The notes beneath the pieces are model-generated. The model was not told the DNA's origin. It did not search any database and worked only from the letters and a program-made list of their open reading frames with translations. Positions 33,046 to 59,640 of a stretch of DNA of 59,640 bases are shown here, in pieces. The DNA comes from Deltaproteobacteria bacterium (lineage in GTDB: Bacteria; JAEEML01), in the NCBI GenBank assembly GCA_016283195.1, contig JAEEML010000144.1, positions 1 through 59,640 of the forward strand, read 5' to 3'. Each line of letters opens with the position of its first letter. The first letter of the stretch is position 1. A program made the position numbers and the translations under genes.

Positions 33046-33975
33046 TCACAGAGAGTCCTTAAGACAACGTACAGAAAATCCGCCACCTCTATTGGTAACA
33101 GGCACAAAAGCACCGCCAGAAACGAGAACCAGGCTGTACATATAGTAAGTATCGCCCTGCTCCGTAGCAGACCAGAAGTAAGCACCGTAACCGAAATTAT
33201 GAAAAACGTCATCGGTGCCCCAAAGACCTGCCGGCAAAGCACCAAAAGCTGTGCTGTTAGTAACCAGATCTTGGTAATCATGTATCCACTCCGAATCTTT
33301 AGCTACTAAAGCGAGGAAAGCCGGATTTGGTTTTTCATTATTATCATTGGTTCCAACTACACTCAAAAGGCTCTCAAATTCTGCTTTACTTGGTAAATGC
33401 CAGCCAGCTGGGCATACTTTCAAGGCATCTTCCAATGAATAAATACAACCATATTTTTCTACAAAATCGGTATCAGCATCAGTATTAGCATAACAGGTAA
33501 GCGACGCACCTTCACGGCCAAAAGTGCCAGCCATATTTTTGGCCGACCATATCTGATCACCAATAGTGACAGTTTCTAAAGCCAATGTATCACAGTTTTT
33601 TCCGGAAAAACCGGCCTGGCAGTGTGAACATGTGCCATCCTCTTGTTTGGGAATACCACCACCATTTACACATGTTGGCGTTTTATCGCAATTCGGGCCC
33701 CAATAATTAGCCGTACATTTTGAGCAGGTTCCATCCTCTTGAATACCATCTTTGCAAATGCCATTTACACAAGTGCAAGGCTTGCACTCCGGCCCAAAAT
33801 AACCACTTTTACAATAAGCCAGCTGTTCAGATGTCCCGTCTTTGTTATTTTGGCCGTCTTTACTATTTTGGCCATCTTTACCATTCTGCTCTTGTGGCCC
33901 CTGTTCTCCGGCGCCTCCACAGGCAGCAAAGAGTAAACATAAGGCTATACCACTAACCATTCCTAATTTTTGCAT
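33046..33975 (-). CDS. FISUMP-domain lipoprotein with EGF-like repeats
   Basis: The 309-aa product starts at the ATG at 33975, which has GGAGGA 6 bases upstream. The lipobox is LLFAAC (Cys19). A short Gly-rich tract (NGKDGQNSKDGQNNKDG) replaces the collagen-like tract of its paralogues. Three EGF-like Cys units follow (YFGPECKPCTCVNGIC, YWGPNCD, GFSGKNCD). The FISUMP domain covers residues about 145-309: IGDQIWSAKNMA, CYANTDADTDF, CPAGWHLPS, FGALPAGLWG, and FSVRCLK at the end. It is paralogous to 55127-56068 and 57612-58592 but lies alone and does not carry their upstream module. The role is unknown; a surface location is likely. Confidence 0.85.
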   Translation of the reverse strand: MQKLGMVSGIALCLLFAACGGAGEQGPQEQNGKDGQNSKDGQNNKDGTSEQLAYCKSGYFGPECKPCTCVNGICKDGIQEDGTCSKCTANYWGPNCDKTPTCVNGGGIPKQEDGTCSHCQAGFSGKNCDTLALETVTIGDQIWSAKNMAGTFGREGASLTCYANTDADTDFVEKYGCIYSLEDALKVCPAGWHLPSKAEFESLLSVVGTNDNNEKPNPAFLALVAKDSEWIHDYQDLVTNSTAFGALPAGLWGTDDVFHNFGYGAYFWSATEQGDTYYMYSLVLVSGGAFVPVTNRGGGFSVRCLKDSL

Positions 33976-34086
33976 AAAAAATCCTCCGCGTATAGGCACA
34001 TAAAACACCAATTTTGGTGCCTTGTTCTTTCTTTTATATCGCTGCGAATATCTAGTAATTACAGCATGTTTTTCCTGTCAGCTTGT

Positions 34087-54899: not shown

Positions 54900-55007
54900 C
54901 TATTCTCCTCCCAAGCCGGGATTTTGCCGACTCTTTATGGCAGAAAAAGATGATTTTGGAAAGAGCCAGTCTACGGTAAAAGCTGCAGATTTTCAACCAA
55001 GGAATAG

Positions 55008-55120
55008 CGCCCGCCGCAGGCGGGCGGATCGCGCTGATTTTTCAAAATTTTACAGGGTACCCTGTATATTAGGTATTGAAAATACCTAAACCATTTTTCC
55101 GTGCCTATTGGCACAAGGAG
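55008..55120 (+). promoter_or_regulatory. Conserved promoter/leader module, copy A
   Basis: Four dyads in order: CGCCCGCC/GGCGGGCG (55008-55026), the palindrome ACAGGGTACCCTGT (55052-55065), TTAGGTAT/ATACCTAA with a TGAAA loop (55069-55089), and GTGCC/GGCAC (55101-55114). AAGGAG follows (55115-55120). A -35 candidate TTCAAA (55041) and a -10 candidate TATATT (55065) are 18 bases apart, with the palindrome in the spacer. Confidence 0.75.
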
Positions 55121-55126
55121 TGCAGT

Positions 55127-56068
55127 ATGAAAAAGTGTAAAGTCTTAGTTTCAGCAATGTTAACTCTCGCCCTCACGGCCTGCGGCGGTGCCGGTGAACA
55201 AGGGCCGGAAGGCAAGCAAGGCCCGCAAGGACTCAAAGGTGATGCCGGGAGCGACGGCCAACCGGGCAGCGATGGTGAAGGCTGTTATGTAGTGAAAAAA
55301 GATGCCGACCACGGCATTGTTATTTGCCCGGCCGATGGCTCATCATACGTTATCTACAGCCCGGAAAACTTGCCCAAAGCCAATGGTTTACCTAATGGCA
55401 ACGGCGGCTATCTTTACTGCAATGCCGGTTATTTTGGAGAAAGTTGCACCGCCTGCACCTGTGAGCGCGGCACTTGCAACGATGGCCTAAACGGAAGTGG
55501 TGAATGTTCTTGCTCCAGAGGTTACACCGGCAAAGATTGTTCCGTACTTGCCCTTGGTTACATGGCCGACACCAACGGCACCGCTTACAAAACAACCATA
55601 ATCGGCGAACAAATCTGGATGGCTGAAAATATGGCCAGCGATACAGCAACCGACGGCAGCTCAATCACTTGCTATGCCAATACCGACGCTGATCCGGATT
55701 TTGTGGAACATTATGGCTGCCTCTATAATTGGGAAGATGCCATGAAAGTTTGCCCTAAGGGCTGGCATTTACCAACACAGACCAATTTTGATGGCTTGCT
55801 AAATATTGCCGGCGATAACGCCCAAAACAAAACAGATAATCTGCGTTCCGCAACTTGGCTAAATGGCAATGACAGTCTTGGCTTTAATGCTCTTCCTGCC
55901 GGAGACAAGCTCAGTACCAATTACCTTCATTTTGGTACCGGTGCTCGCTTTTGGTCAGCCACAGGCAATACTACCCTCGCCTTCTACTTGGGGCTCGGTC
56001 CTAACAATGCTTATATGGACAGAACCGGCGTGGAAGCTGCTTTCTCCGTGCGCTGCATAAAAGACTAA
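55127..56068 (+). CDS. FISUMP-domain lipoprotein, array copy A
   Basis: The 313-aa product starts at the ATG at 55127, with AAGGAG 6 bases upstream. An in-frame TTG 17 codons earlier would translate the hairpins and is rejected. The lipobox is LALTAC (Cys19). Ten Gly-X-Y triplets follow (GEQGPEGKQGPQGLKGDAG and on). Next come a Cys pair (GCYVVKKDADHGIVIC) and an EGF-like unit (GYFGESCTACTC, CSRGYTGKDC). The FISUMP domain from about residue 157 has IGEQIWMAENMA, CYANTDADPDF, CPKGWHLPT, FNALPAG, and SVRCIKD. The N-terminal 140 residues are nearly identical to copy B. Confidence 0.88.
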   Translation: MKKCKVLVSAMLTLALTACGGAGEQGPEGKQGPQGLKGDAGSDGQPGSDGEGCYVVKKDADHGIVICPADGSSYVIYSPENLPKANGLPNGNGGYLYCNAGYFGESCTACTCERGTCNDGLNGSGECSCSRGYTGKDCSVLALGYMADTNGTAYKTTIIGEQIWMAENMASDTATDGSSITCYANTDADPDFVEHYGCLYNWEDAMKVCPKGWHLPTQTNFDGLLNIAGDNAQNKTDNLRSATWLNGNDSLGFNALPAGDKLSTNYLHFGTGARFWSATGNTTLAFYLGLGPNNAYMDRTGVEAAFSVRCIKD

Positions 56069-56084
56069 ATGCGCGTCTCTCTCA

Positions 56085-57335
56085 TTAATCAAGCAGACTT
56101 TTATCCAGCAAAAAGTTAATAATTCCAATTTGTTCTATGCCGTTTTCATCCCGCCGGAGTTTTATATTGTCGCGCGTGATAATGAGCTTTTTAAAACTAT
56201 CACCAATAATATTCAAAGGTCTTTTTTCCTGCCGGCTCTTGGCCTCCGTCTCTAAATAGAGCGCTGACTGAATATAATATTTTTGGCTCCCTTTACTGGC
56301 GATGAAGTCAATCTCCAGCTGCTTTTTGATAGTTTTGCCATTAGCCCCTTTGTCAAAAGTCTCTATAACTCCAACATCCACCGAAAAGCCGCGCGCTAAA
56401 AGTTCATTATATATAATATTTTCCATGAGATGGCTTTCTTCCGTCTGGCGAAAGTTAAGCCGGGCATTACGCAAACCAACATCTGCCAAATAATATTTGG
56501 CCGTGGCAGCTATATATCTCTTGCCCTTAATATCATAGCGCGACGCCTTTGAAAGCATGAAGGCATCCTCAAAGTAGCCGATATAATTCTTGATGGTGTG
56601 ATCGCTAATAGTCTTTTGTTTAACACTCTTAAAAGTTTTTGAAAGTTTTAGGGGATTAGTAAGCGAACCAACAGCAGATGACAAAATATCCAATAATTCA
56701 TCAAGTTCTACACTGTTGCGCACTTTGTGACGCTCAAGAATATCGGCCACATATACCTCTTTAAAGAGATTTTTGAGATACGCCGCTTTTTCTTCAACCT
56801 CAGTCAGGCTAAGGACATAGGGCATACCTCCGTAATTCAGATAATCATCGAAAGCTTCATCCTTAGAACCGGAATATACCGAAGAATATTCTGCAAAACT
56901 AAGGGGATAAACCCTTATCTCATCGCCCCTTCCACGAAACTCGGTGATAATATCGGAGGAGAGGAACTTGGAATTACTGCCGCTTACATAAACATCAACA
57001 TTCGCCAGATGCAAAAAGCCGTTAAGCGCCTCTTCAAAATTTTGTATAAATTGAATTTCATCGAGGAGCAAAAAATAATCGGAGGAATCTTTAAGCAAAC
57101 TGCTTACATGATTATAAAGGCTCTCGGCTGAGCGCAATGGTTTATTCCGAATATCATCAAGAGCTATTCTGATTATGTGGTCGGCCGCTATGCCGCTTTC
57201 CAGCAAATAGTTATAAAAAATGGTGTTCAAAAGATAGGACTTACCGCAGCGCCGTATGCCGGTTATAATTTTGATCAGCCCATTTTTTTGTTTACGAATA
57301 AGCTTTTGAAGATATATGTCACGCTTAATCTGCAT
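56085..57335 (-). CDS. AAA ATPase with DUF4143 domain
   Basis: The 416-aa protein has an AAA_14-type ATPase with Walker A ITGIRRCGKSYLL (about residue 25), Walker B YFLLLDEIQFI (about 90), sensor VSGSNSKFLSS, and the RGRGDEIRVYPLSFAEY segment. A C-terminal DUF4143 domain has YYLADVGLRNARLNFRQTEE and ENIIYNELLARGF, which resembles a nuclease-like fold (LEIDFIAS near 342). Members are widespread, often variably present, and of unknown function. It lies on the opposite strand between two FISUMP genes, preceded by two similar hairpins. Confidence 0.85.
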   Translation of the reverse strand: MQIKRDIYLQKLIRKQKNGLIKIITGIRRCGKSYLLNTIFYNYLLESGIAADHIIRIALDDIRNKPLRSAESLYNHVSSLLKDSSDYFLLLDEIQFIQNFEEALNGFLHLANVDVYVSGSNSKFLSSDIITEFRGRGDEIRVYPLSFAEYSSVYSGSKDEAFDDYLNYGGMPYVLSLTEVEEKAAYLKNLFKEVYVADILERHKVRNSVELDELLDILSSAVGSLTNPLKLSKTFKSVKQKTISDHTIKNYIGYFEDAFMLSKASRYDIKGKRYIAATAKYYLADVGLRNARLNFRQTEESHLMENIIYNELLARGFSVDVGVIETFDKGANGKTIKKQLEIDFIASKGSQKYYIQSALYLETEAKSRQEKRPLNIIGDSFKKLIITRDNIKLRRDENGIEQIGIINFLLDKSLLD

Positions 57336-57346
57336 TTACTCTTCCC

Positions 57347-57384
57347 ATTGCGAATATTGGTGGAAATCCACCTTTTTTCGCAAT
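57347..57384. promoter_or_regulatory. Hairpin 1 upstream of the DUF4143 gene
   Basis: Outer arms ATTGCGAA (57347) and TTCGCAAT (57377) and inner arms GGTGG and CCACC enclose an AAAT loop. It is 11 bases from the DUF4143 start codon and may overlap the ribosome site. A second, similar dyad lies at 57419. Confidence 0.65.
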
Positions 57385-57418
57385 AACTATAGTATTTCGG
57401 AGCAGAGGACAATCATTT

Positions 57419-57456
57419 ATTGCGAATTTTGGTAAAAAAACACCTTTTTTCGCGAT
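57419..57456. promoter_or_regulatory. Hairpin 2 upstream of the DUF4143 gene
   Basis: ATTGCGAA (57419) pairs with TTCGCGAT (57449) with one mismatch, and the interior GGT/ACC pair and the CCTTTTTTCGC run match hairpin 1. The two copies start 72 bases apart. Confidence 0.6.
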
Positions 57457-57496
57457 TACCATTTTCAAAAGATCCGCGCGGTTTAGAGGAGAAATT

Positions 57497-57605
57497 GCCG
57501 CCGCAAGCGGCGATCGCGCCAGTTTTTCAAAATTTTACAGGGTACCCTGTATATTAGGTATTGAAAATACCTAAACCATTTTTCCGTGCCCATTGGCACA
57601 AGGAG
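57497..57605 (+). promoter_or_regulatory. Conserved promoter/leader module, copy B
   Basis: The same order as copy A: GCCGC/GCGGC (57497-57511), ACAGGGTACCCTGT (57537-57550), TTAGGTAT/ATACCTAA (57554-57574), GTGCC/GGCAC (57586-57599), then AAGGAG. From TTTTTCAAAATTTTACAG to the start codon it is almost identical to copies A and C. Candidate -35 TTCAAA is at 57526 and -10 TATATT at 57550. Confidence 0.75.
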
Positions 57606-57611
57606 CGCAGT

Positions 57612-58592
57612 ATGAAAAAGTGTAAAGTCTTAGTCTCAGTAGTGTTAACTCTAGCCCTAGCTGCCTGCGGCAGCGCCGGTGAGCAGGGGCCAGCTGGCCC
57701 AGAGGGCAAGCAAGGCCCGCAAGGACTCAAAGGCGATGCCGGCAGCGACGGCCAGCCGGGCAGCGATGGCGAAGGCTGCTATGTGGTGAAAAAAGATGCC
57801 GATCACGGCATAGTTATCTGTCCGGCAGATGGCTCTTCGTATGTCATCTATAGCCCGGAAAACTTGCCTAAATCCAATGGTTTACCTAATGGCCAGGGCG
57901 GCTATCTTTACTGCAATGCCGGCTACTTTGGAGAAAATTGCGCTGCTTGCACCTGTGAGCACGGCACTTGCAACGACGGCCTAAATGGAAGTGGTGAATG
58001 CACCTGTGCAGCCGGATATATCGGCAAAAACTGCGACATAGAAAACCTTCTAAAGTACAACAGCAAAATATATAAAGTGGTGCAAATTGGCGAGCAAATC
58101 TGGATGGCCGAAAATATGGCTACTGATACAGCCACAGATGGCAGCGCTGTGACTTGCTATGCCAATACCAACGCCGACCCGGTTTTTGTGGAAAATTACG
58201 GCTGCTTATATACTTGGGCTGATGCTATGAAGATTTGTCCCACCGGTTGGCGTTTACCGGAAAAAAGCGACTTCGATGACTTATTAACCTATGTGGAAAA
58301 TAATCGCACTAGCAGTAGCAACTTCTTGGCCCTTATAGCTAAAAGCACTGCTTGGACTGGGCACCAAAACCAAGGTGGTGATGACTTTGCTTTTTCTGCG
58401 CTACCAGCCGGTCGCAGGGGCGTCGATGGCAATTACAGCCTTTTTGGCACACTCACCGGTTTCTGGTCGGCTACATATAATGCTATCGGCACCGCCAACA
58501 CCCTGAGCATCAGTAGCAATAATAGCCCTACCGCCATTACAGGCACGACCGACAAAAGTCTCGCCTATTCCGTCCGCTGCGTGAAACAATAA
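57612..58592 (+). CDS. FISUMP-domain lipoprotein, array copy B
   Basis: The 326-aa product starts at the ATG at 57612. Lipobox LALAAC (Cys19). Eleven Gly-X-Y triplets, one more (GPA) than copy A. The EGF-like unit reads GYFGENCAACTC with CAAGYIGKNCD. From about residue 150 the FISUMP domain has IGEQIWMAENMA, CYANTNADPVF, CPTGWRLPE, FSALPAGRRG, YSLFGTLTGFWSA and SVRCVKQ. The first 140 residues are almost identical to copy A, while the FISUMP domain diverges. It is separated from the VapC-like gene on the opposite strand by 18 bases. Confidence 0.88.
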   Translation: MKKCKVLVSVVLTLALAACGSAGEQGPAGPEGKQGPQGLKGDAGSDGQPGSDGEGCYVVKKDADHGIVICPADGSSYVIYSPENLPKSNGLPNGQGGYLYCNAGYFGENCAACTCEHGTCNDGLNGSGECTCAAGYIGKNCDIENLLKYNSKIYKVVQIGEQIWMAENMATDTATDGSAVTCYANTNADPVFVENYGCLYTWADAMKICPTGWRLPEKSDFDDLLTYVENNRTSSSNFLALIAKSTAWTGHQNQGGDDFAFSALPAGRRGVDGNYSLFGTLTGFWSATYNAIGTANTLSISSNNSPTAITGTTDKSLAYSVRCVKQ

Positions 58593-58610
58593 CCGAATAG
58601 AGCCCAAAAA

Positions 58611-58988
58611 CTATGGGCGAAATACCTCTACTGGCAAATCAGGTATCAACTTATAATGCTTATTGTTAGCGGTACAAAGCCTTTGGCCATACTGCACACA
58701 AGTCGCAGCAATCAGGGCATCGCCCATCTCCAGTGAATTCACCAGGAAAAAGCTTTCGACATAACTCAGCGCTTTTGCAGAAATTATCTCGTTCAGTTGA
58801 ATTATTTCAACATCAAGTTTTTTAAGCATTTTCTTAAAAATAGCCAGTTCCTGCTTATTTTTCATACCCTGCACAAGTTCCATATAGGTAACGGCGGAAA
58901 TACTAAAAGGAGCCTCAGCAAGAACTTTGCTCCTAGCATTTTCATTACCACGCAAAAACCAGATAAGCACATCAGTATCAAATATCAA
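58611..58988 (-). CDS. vapC: PIN-domain toxin, VapC-like
   Basis: The 125-aa PIN domain protein has the acidic active-site residues in IFDTDVLIWFLRG (Asp4), MELVQG (Glu near 37) and MGDALIAATC (Asp near 89), followed by LCTANNKHYKLIP. VapC toxins are Mg-dependent RNases that cut tRNA or rRNA. The likely start is TTG at 58988, overlapping the antitoxin gene by 11 bases. It lies 18 bases from the end of FISUMP copy B. Confidence 0.85.
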   Translation of the reverse strand: MIFDTDVLIWFLRGNENARSKVLAEAPFSISAVTYMELVQGMKNKQELAIFKKMLKKLDVEIIQLNEIISAKALSYVESFFLVNSLEMGDALIAATCVQYGQRLCTANNKHYKLIPDLPVEVFRP

Positions 58989-59235
58989 AATGGCGCCCCC
59001 GACGCAGTGTTCGCGCGTATTCTTCTACATTTTCCGCTTCATTATGACTTTTCCAAAGTCCAAATGCCTCTTCTGTGTCGTCATCTGTATATTTTTTTAC
59101 TTTACTTTCAACTGGTGCTGCCCGGCGAAATGAATCAAGAAATGTAATAATAACTTCTTTTCCATTAAAAGAAGGAGGCAAAAAATCATCAGCCACAATA
59201 TTGCCGCCATTTACATATCCTTTTACTGCCAACAT
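58978..59235 (-). CDS. VapB-like antitoxin
   Basis: The 85-aa product starts at the ATG at 59235, with GGGAGG 7 bases upstream. The N-terminal residues (AVKGYVNGGNIVADDFLPP) with FNGKEVIITFLDSF resemble small antitoxins with a beta-rich N-terminus and disordered tail (GRHFDI end). It overlaps the PIN toxin start, as toxin-antitoxin pairs do. It does not show a clear AbrB or ribbon-helix-helix signature, so the antitoxin call comes mainly from context. Confidence 0.7.
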   Translation of the reverse strand: MLAVKGYVNGGNIVADDFLPPSFNGKEVIITFLDSFRRAAPVESKVKKYTDDDTEEAFGLWKSHNEAENVEEYARTLRRGRHFDI

Positions 59236-59407
59236 TTTCGCACCTCCCACTCTACTCACTATAGCACACCTAGCCATATTGCGCTAGCGGCTCGGGGGCA
59301 AGGTAAAGACTCCGGCAATTTTACATCAATTTCCGCAAATTCGGCAGCCACGATGCCCTCCTCTTTTCTCCTTCACCCCACAAATATTTAATAATTACAG
59401 CATGTTC

Positions 59408-59480
59408 CCCCTCTCCATTTGTAAAAAATGGAGAGGGGTGCCGCGAAGCGGCGGGGTGAGGGCCGCCGCAGGCGGCTCGC
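59408..59480 (+). repeat. REP-like hairpin element, copy 2
   Basis: A perfect 13-bp hairpin, CCCCTCTCCATTT (59408-59420) with AAATGGAGAGGGG (59426-59438) and a GTAAA loop, is followed by CCGCGAAGCGG and GGGGTGAGGGCCGCCGCAGG. The same order in reverse orientation occurs at 2388-2525. It is preceded by TAATTACAGCATGTT, also seen at 34056. Its last dyad (GCCGCC/GGCGGC, 59462-59476) doubles as the first dyad of promoter module C. Confidence 0.7.
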
Positions 59481-59568
59481 GCCTATTTTTCAAAATTTTA
59501 CAGGGTACCCTGTATATTAGGTATTGAAAATACCTAAACCATTTTTCCGTGCCCATTGGCACAAGGAG
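59462..59568 (+). promoter_or_regulatory. Conserved promoter/leader module, copy C
   Basis: Dyads as in copies A and B: GCCGCC/GGCGGC (59462-59476), ACAGGGTACCCTGT (59500-59513), TTAGGTAT/ATACCTAA (59517-59537), GTGCC/GGCAC (59549-59562), then AAGGAG. Candidate -35 TTCAAA is at 59489 and -10 TATATT at 59513. Confidence 0.75.
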
Positions 59569-59574
59569 CGCAGT

Positions 59575-59640
59575 ATGAAGAAGTGTAAAGTTTTAGTCTC
59601 AGTAGTGTTAACTCTCGCCCTCACGGCCTGCGGCGGCGCC
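59575..59640 (+). CDS. FISUMP lipoprotein, array copy C (5' end only)
   Basis: Only the first 22 codons are in the window. They encode MKKCKVLVSVVLTLALTACG, a signal peptide with lipobox LTAC, nearly identical to copies A and B. The upstream module is identical too. A third member of the array is therefore almost certain, but the FISUMP domain itself is not visible. Confidence 0.8.
   Translation, partial: MKKCKVLVSVVLTLALTACGGA

Follow-up and report, generated by a model that had tools for sequence, protein, structure and literature searches.

Surface protein families in which a constant part is joined to a variable part diversified by recombination include Neisseria pil, Borrelia vls, and Mycoplasma vlhA. 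According to the accessible part of one report (PMC4704652), most Fibrobacteres carry FISUMP domains, with 17–119 extracytoplasmic copies per genome, which were named as putatively cellulose-binding and as possible analogs of cohesins; a constant leader and front with an exchanged second half is not mentioned there. FISUMP has also been described as the variable domain of diversity-generating retroelement (DGR) targets, and is related to DUF1566 (PMC4159848, PMC8143477). Fib_succ_major ends a predicted lipoprotein DGR target (PMC4159848), and the Fib_succ_major variable domain was also found in Bacteroides phages (PMC8143477). The expansion of FISUMP and the FISUMP variable domains are each known separately, and recombined constant/variable families are also known.

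The window analyzed here, a stretch of 59,640 nucleotides, is the entire contig C3 of a 3.22-Mb deltaproteobacterial draft genome (190 contigs). It contains two FISUMP lipoprotein genes, copies A and B, and the beginning of a third. Like the DGR variable proteins (DUF1566, FGE-sulfatase, Fib_succ_major), these combine a constant lipoprotein scaffold with a C-terminal part that varies; like pil, vls, and vlhA, they belong to a multigene family with a conserved 5′ part and a variable part that appears to be recombined; and like the collagen-like adhesins Lcl and Scl, they contain a short GxxGPxG stretch, with a weak PF07603 match on copy B.

A profile search revealed 116 FISUMP matches in the source genome, a high copy number like that of the Fibrobacteres expansions, and 89 open frames with FISUMP were present among the genome loci examined. 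Among 98 other genomes, none of which is nearer to the source than the same domain, seven reached E ≤ 1e-10 in the FISUMP search, and the number of candidates was comparable in one. A search of viral contigs found eight FISUMP loci. The profile of the front yielded only collagen-like or marginal matches in 59 genomes, only one unrelated collagen-like gene in a genome-contig database, and only collagen-repeat matches among the matches listed for viral contigs.

Copies A and B and their surroundings

The FISUMP genes of the window, their parts, and the genes between them are as follows.

33046–34011, minus strand: fourth FISUMP gene of the window, a related lipoprotein with AGEQGP and an EGF-like stretch, without the leader of copies A and B
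55127–56068, plus strand: copy A, FISUMP lipoprotein (ATG at 55127, stop at 56068)
55127–55537, plus strand: copy A constant front, residues 1–137, with the lipoprotein signal LALTAC (Cys19), collagen-like GxxGPxG, and an EGF-like Cys-rich stretch
55577–55774, plus strand: copy A FISUMP first, conserved half, through CPKGWHLP
55775–56065, plus strand: copy A FISUMP second, variable half, terminating in FSVRCIKD
56085–57335, minus strand: AAA_14/DUF4143 ATPase, outside the FISUMP family, between copies A and B
57612–58592, plus strand: copy B, FISUMP lipoprotein
57612–58028, plus strand: copy B constant front, with the same architecture as copy A (signal, collagen-like, EGF-like Cys-rich)
58065–58260, plus strand: copy B FISUMP first half, through CPTGWRLP
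58261–58589, plus strand: second half of FISUMP in copy B; C48b is its close relative, and no other second half has one
58611–58988, minus strand: PIN-domain protein, between copy B and the third copy
58978–59277, minus strand: small open reading frame upstream of the PIN gene, without a Pfam match, putatively antitoxin-like
59575–59640, plus strand: opening 22 codons of the third copy, which the contig end truncates

Both complete copies score above the curated cut-offs of PF09603 (Pfam; copy A, E = 2.7e-27 and 96.7 bits; copy B, E = 4.2e-28 and 99.3 bits; cut-off 33.9) and TIGR02145 (copy A, E = 7e-35 and 121.3 bits; copy B, E = 3e-37 and 129.2 bits; cut-off 41.65), in agreement with the assignment made in a preliminary description of this DNA. 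Their N-termini are hydrophobic and carry a lipobox cysteine, as in lipoproteins (MKKCKVLVSAMLTLALTAC and ...LALAAC, read directly from the sequence). Unlike Lcl and Scl, copies A and B remain under the curated cut-offs of all adhesin models: Pfam Collagen gave 18.4 and 23.6 bits (cut-off 27.2), and the Lcl/Scl models scored far lower than their cut-offs. The match of copy B to PF07603, the Lcl C-terminal domain, is likewise sub-cut-off. Sub-threshold Lcl_C and FGE-sulfatase matches were found in FISUMP relatives, and these weak matches agree with the proposed relation of FISUMP to DUF1566. With respect to a possible C-type lectin fold, AlphaFold modeling with seven sequences gave a low-confidence mean pLDDT of 46.8, and profile searches with 3 and 46 rows found no PDB sequence match.

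The copies had been described as a tandem array, a view that could not be maintained: the ATPase gene separates copies A and B, the PIN gene and small open reading frame separate copy B from the third copy, and other copies of the subfamily are dispersed over at least six other contigs, with unrelated genes between them. The third copy does begin at the window edge, with its leader and first 22 codons, and this edge is an assembly break of the complete contig; an exact identity search of contig ends found no contig that continues it.

A DUF4143-type ATPase gene on the minus strand also lies between two FISUMP copies in C49 (L026 2940–4174; sequence resemblance). Short inverted repeats lie beside the ATPase genes (GCGAATATTGGTGGAAATCCACC... 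near 57343 in the window, CCGAAAATATGTGGCTAACCACAACTTTT at both ends in C49). PIN toxin-like genes with small partner open reading frames adjoin FISUMP copies at three loci (window 58611–59277; L137 1537–2258; L024 4439–5351), with PIN profile-tested in the window only. The members of a second FISUMP family are secreted and contain from two to four domains of this type, starting near QEYGSFTDSRDG (L080, L081, L082, L083, L084, L085, L086, L094, and L135), and at several loci a FISUMP lipoprotein gene is located directly 3′ of such a gene.

The shared leader

A leader of approximately 97 nt located 5′ of the ATG is common to the family, and copies A and B agree at 92 of 97 nt. Its elements in the window are listed below.

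55037–55126, plus strand: copy A leader, with promoter-like TTCAAA (55041–55046), 18 nt, and TATATT (55065–55070)
55052–55065, plus strand: copy A perfect 14-nt palindrome ACAGGGTACCCTGT, inside the promoter spacer
55069–55089, plus strand: copy A inverted repeat TTAGGTATTGAAAATACCTAA
55101–55114, plus strand: copy A hairpin GTGCCTATTGGCAC, abutting AAGGAG (55115–55120)
57520–57611, plus strand: copy B leader, with palindrome (57537–57550), inverted repeat (57554–57574), hairpin (57586–57599), and AAGGAG (57600–57605)
59485–59574, plus strand: third copy leader, with palindrome (59500–59513)

The ACAGGGTACCCTGT palindrome is present in the leaders of copies A, B, and the third copy. Its location inside the spacer of the putative TTCAAA-18-TATATT promoter suggests that it may act as a shared operator. 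The leader core pattern is commoner than chance, with 14 occurrences in the genome versus 0 for the reversed control. The same leader is also located 5′ of other genes for Cys-rich or EGF-like lipoproteins (C82, C88, and C109), that of C88 also with FISUMP. The leader hairpins were considered as RNA structures and are not claimed as such, because shuffled sequences fold about equally well (z −0.8 to −1.6) and the leader alignment contains a single compensated pair; DNA palindromes fit equally.

Two further leader sequences were observed. An orphan leader on the minus strand of C138 (C138:2334–2355, L153) lies by a PIN gene, without a full FISUMP gene behind it, and its ATG is followed by GACGAATTTGTAGAACAC, which resembles the FISUMP DPDFVEH stretch, as if it were a further deletion scar. 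At C109:33842–33948 (L154), two tandem leader-like sequences, the first degenerate, precede a Cys-rich lipoprotein gene.

Divergence along the gene and evidence for recombination

The comparison covered seven members (A, B, C48a, C138, C49a, C87, and partial C7e), and C48b was added for the FISUMP part only. Copies A and B had been described as nearly identical from the promoter to about residue 140; the common leader and front were confirmed, but near-identity was overstated, as residues 1–137 are 86.1% identical in nucleotides and 90% in amino acids (dS = 0.66, dN = 0.05). Nucleotide identity is 71.5% at residues 138–216 and 51.6% after residue 217. In comparisons without C87, the fronts (residues 1–137) had a mean dS of about 0.65 and dN of 0.03–0.11, the dS of the FISUMP first half was mostly 0.7–2.4, and that of the second half was saturated or greater than 1 in nearly all pairs, with dN of 0.5–0.9. 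Max-chi2 analysis of pairs of family members revealed that identity drops stepwise along the gene, and no pair of full-length members showed smooth, uniform divergence. The change point is at residue 127 for copies A and B and at residues 198–217, inside FISUMP, for most other pairs; the single breakpoint proposed near codon 140 is not supported, as this codon is near the A/B change only. C87 changes at about residue 33, and only the signal and collagen-like part are common to it and the other members. Conversion appears not to be recent for most pairs, because the fronts differ at approximately 40% of synonymous sites.

C48b is an abrupt mosaic. Its first 43 informative sites all agree with C7e (43 of 43), after which it switches to B; its identity to C7e is 99.4% before residue 198 and 47.8% after, and its second half is 87.5% identical in nucleotides to that of B. 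An assembler k-mer chimera is unlikely at this site, because the junction offers only about 10 nt common to B and C7e, and C48b differs from both parents. Because the start of C48b coincides with a contig end and its initial 120 nt are also present in C7, support from reads is desirable. In AU tests, the front rejected the second-half topology and vice versa (p = 0.0017 and 0.005; six full genes), and PHI gave p of about 0.001, at the permutation limit, both for the front by itself and for the complete gene; with 5–8 sequences, the tree and PHI tests establish discordance, not the full history. The nearest relative varies by segment (front, C48a–C49a at 91%; back, C48a–C87 at 69%).

Strain mixture or collapsed repeats could also give apparent mosaics, as an artefact of assembly or binning in a draft genome of 190 contigs with 4.18% contamination, several contigs that end within family genes, and no 16S rRNA gene detected. 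This explanation is very improbable, however: the pattern is already visible in copies A and B, which sit on a single contig and have unrelated flanking sequence, no k-mer is shared at the C48b junction, and the synonymous-site difference in the fronts is too large for collapsed alleles.

Controls were directed against a general fast evolution of the second half. Constant-front family paralogs are 74–89% alike in the FISUMP first half, and their second halves are mostly at background. For pairs with first-half nucleotide identity of at least 75%, this family averaged 79.9% in the first half versus 51.9% in the second (r = 0.15), whereas the secreted multi-FISUMP family of this genome averaged 80.3% versus 70.8% (r = 0.79). 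Since the genome background is 48.8 ± 5.2%, most second halves of the constant-front family resemble one another no more closely than FISUMP pairs drawn at random. Another FISUMP-rich genome gave means of 62% for the N half and 51% for the C half, and because second halves diverge faster there also, part of the contrast between the halves reflects constraint, as a general trend. The terminal FISUMP domains of three C95 genes (L081 4062–4547, 5811–6326, and 7564–8097) have a conserved first half (80%) and a variable second half (55–62%), and the inner domains differ.

These comparisons bear on ordinary divergence of anciently duplicated paralogs, in which the leader and front would be held by purifying selection and the second half would evolve fast by relaxed or diversifying selection, without exchange. 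The low front dN fits this explanation, as do the less conserved second halves in general, including those of the other FISUMP-rich genome. However, dS jumps as well, from approximately 0.66 in the front to mostly saturated values in the second half, and the close pairs of the sister multi-FISUMP family lack a second-half drop. The C48b mosaic and the rejection of one history by AU and PHI also argue against it, and divergence without exchange is disfavored as unlikely. Gene conversion or domain shuffling, proposed in the preliminary description, is supported by the C48b mosaic, the discordant trees, PHI, and second halves mostly at background identity, all of which point to probable recombination in a constant-front/variable-back family. 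The original observation was partly confirmed, and its interpretation is partly supported.

Mutagenic retrohoming by a DGR could likewise rewrite the C-terminal part of FISUMP, a domain already recorded among DGR targets. DGR-type reverse transcriptases carry an SQ motif at motif 4, whereas the two complete ones of the three matches in this genome have GSPLSP and GSPVAN, and the remaining match, which resembles the first, is incomplete. The differences between family members span the entire second half, with indels, and those between B and C48b involve all base types rather than one template base. Unlike DGR proteins, the family thus appears to vary by the exchange of whole halves, not by point rewriting, and a DGR is extremely improbable. 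As the cause on present evidence it was rejected: the reverse transcriptase hits inspected have the wrong motif, and the second halves compared do not differ in the manner of a DGR variable repeat. L138 and L140 contain two related non-DGR-type reverse transcriptase genes with similar neighbors, the complete one with GSPLSP and the other partial at a contig end.

Two family members are deletion products: C49b, in which the leader is joined directly to FISUMP within AAGGA, and C46, which lost parts of the front and of FISUMP. Together with C78 and C116, these fragments or truncated copies could be taken as silent donor cassettes for one expression site, as in programmed antigenic variation. They resemble deletion scars or contig ends, however, and in at least six copies the leader, start, and signal peptide are all intact, a pattern other than a single expression site with promoterless donors. 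Unlike pil, vls, and vlhA, the FISUMP copies appear individually expressible, which makes such a program improbable.

Proposed exchange and its significance

The reading that we consider probable is a dispersed, presumably co-regulated lipoprotein family in which intragenomic homologous recombination swaps the putative ligand-binding second half of FISUMP. Each copy has the palindrome-containing leader, followed by the signal of a lipoprotein, a short stalk of collagen-like and EGF-like sequence, and FISUMP at the C-terminus. The copies would recombine within the genome by homology, by gene conversion or unequal exchange, whichever enzyme and route may be involved, and the conserved leader, the front, and the FISUMP motifs YGCLYxW and CPxGWHLP would serve as homology tracts. 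Such exchange, which may continue at present, would keep the 5′ part similar and trade the second half, the likely ligand-contacting part by its relation to DUF1566/Lcl_C domains. In this way, the genome would acquire a repertoire of putatively surface-exposed, anchored binding proteins on one presentation module. A more far-reaching version, possible but doubtful, is that of retroelement-free combinatorial receptors, in which one regulated leader-front module would take up new second halves from a pool of approximately 100 FISUMP domains, with exchange favored at YGCLYxW/CPxGWHLP and an actively changing repertoire.

Some bacterial genomes carry approximately 100 FISUMP copies. The combination of a constant leader and front with an exchanged second half points to the second half as the specificity-bearing part. 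Natural pairs for binding comparison are B and C48b, with a common back, and C7e and C48b, with a common first half. The family would show that a target domain diversified by retroelements can also diversify by plain recombination, and recombining back halves on a shared front is a plausible way to build varied surface receptors.
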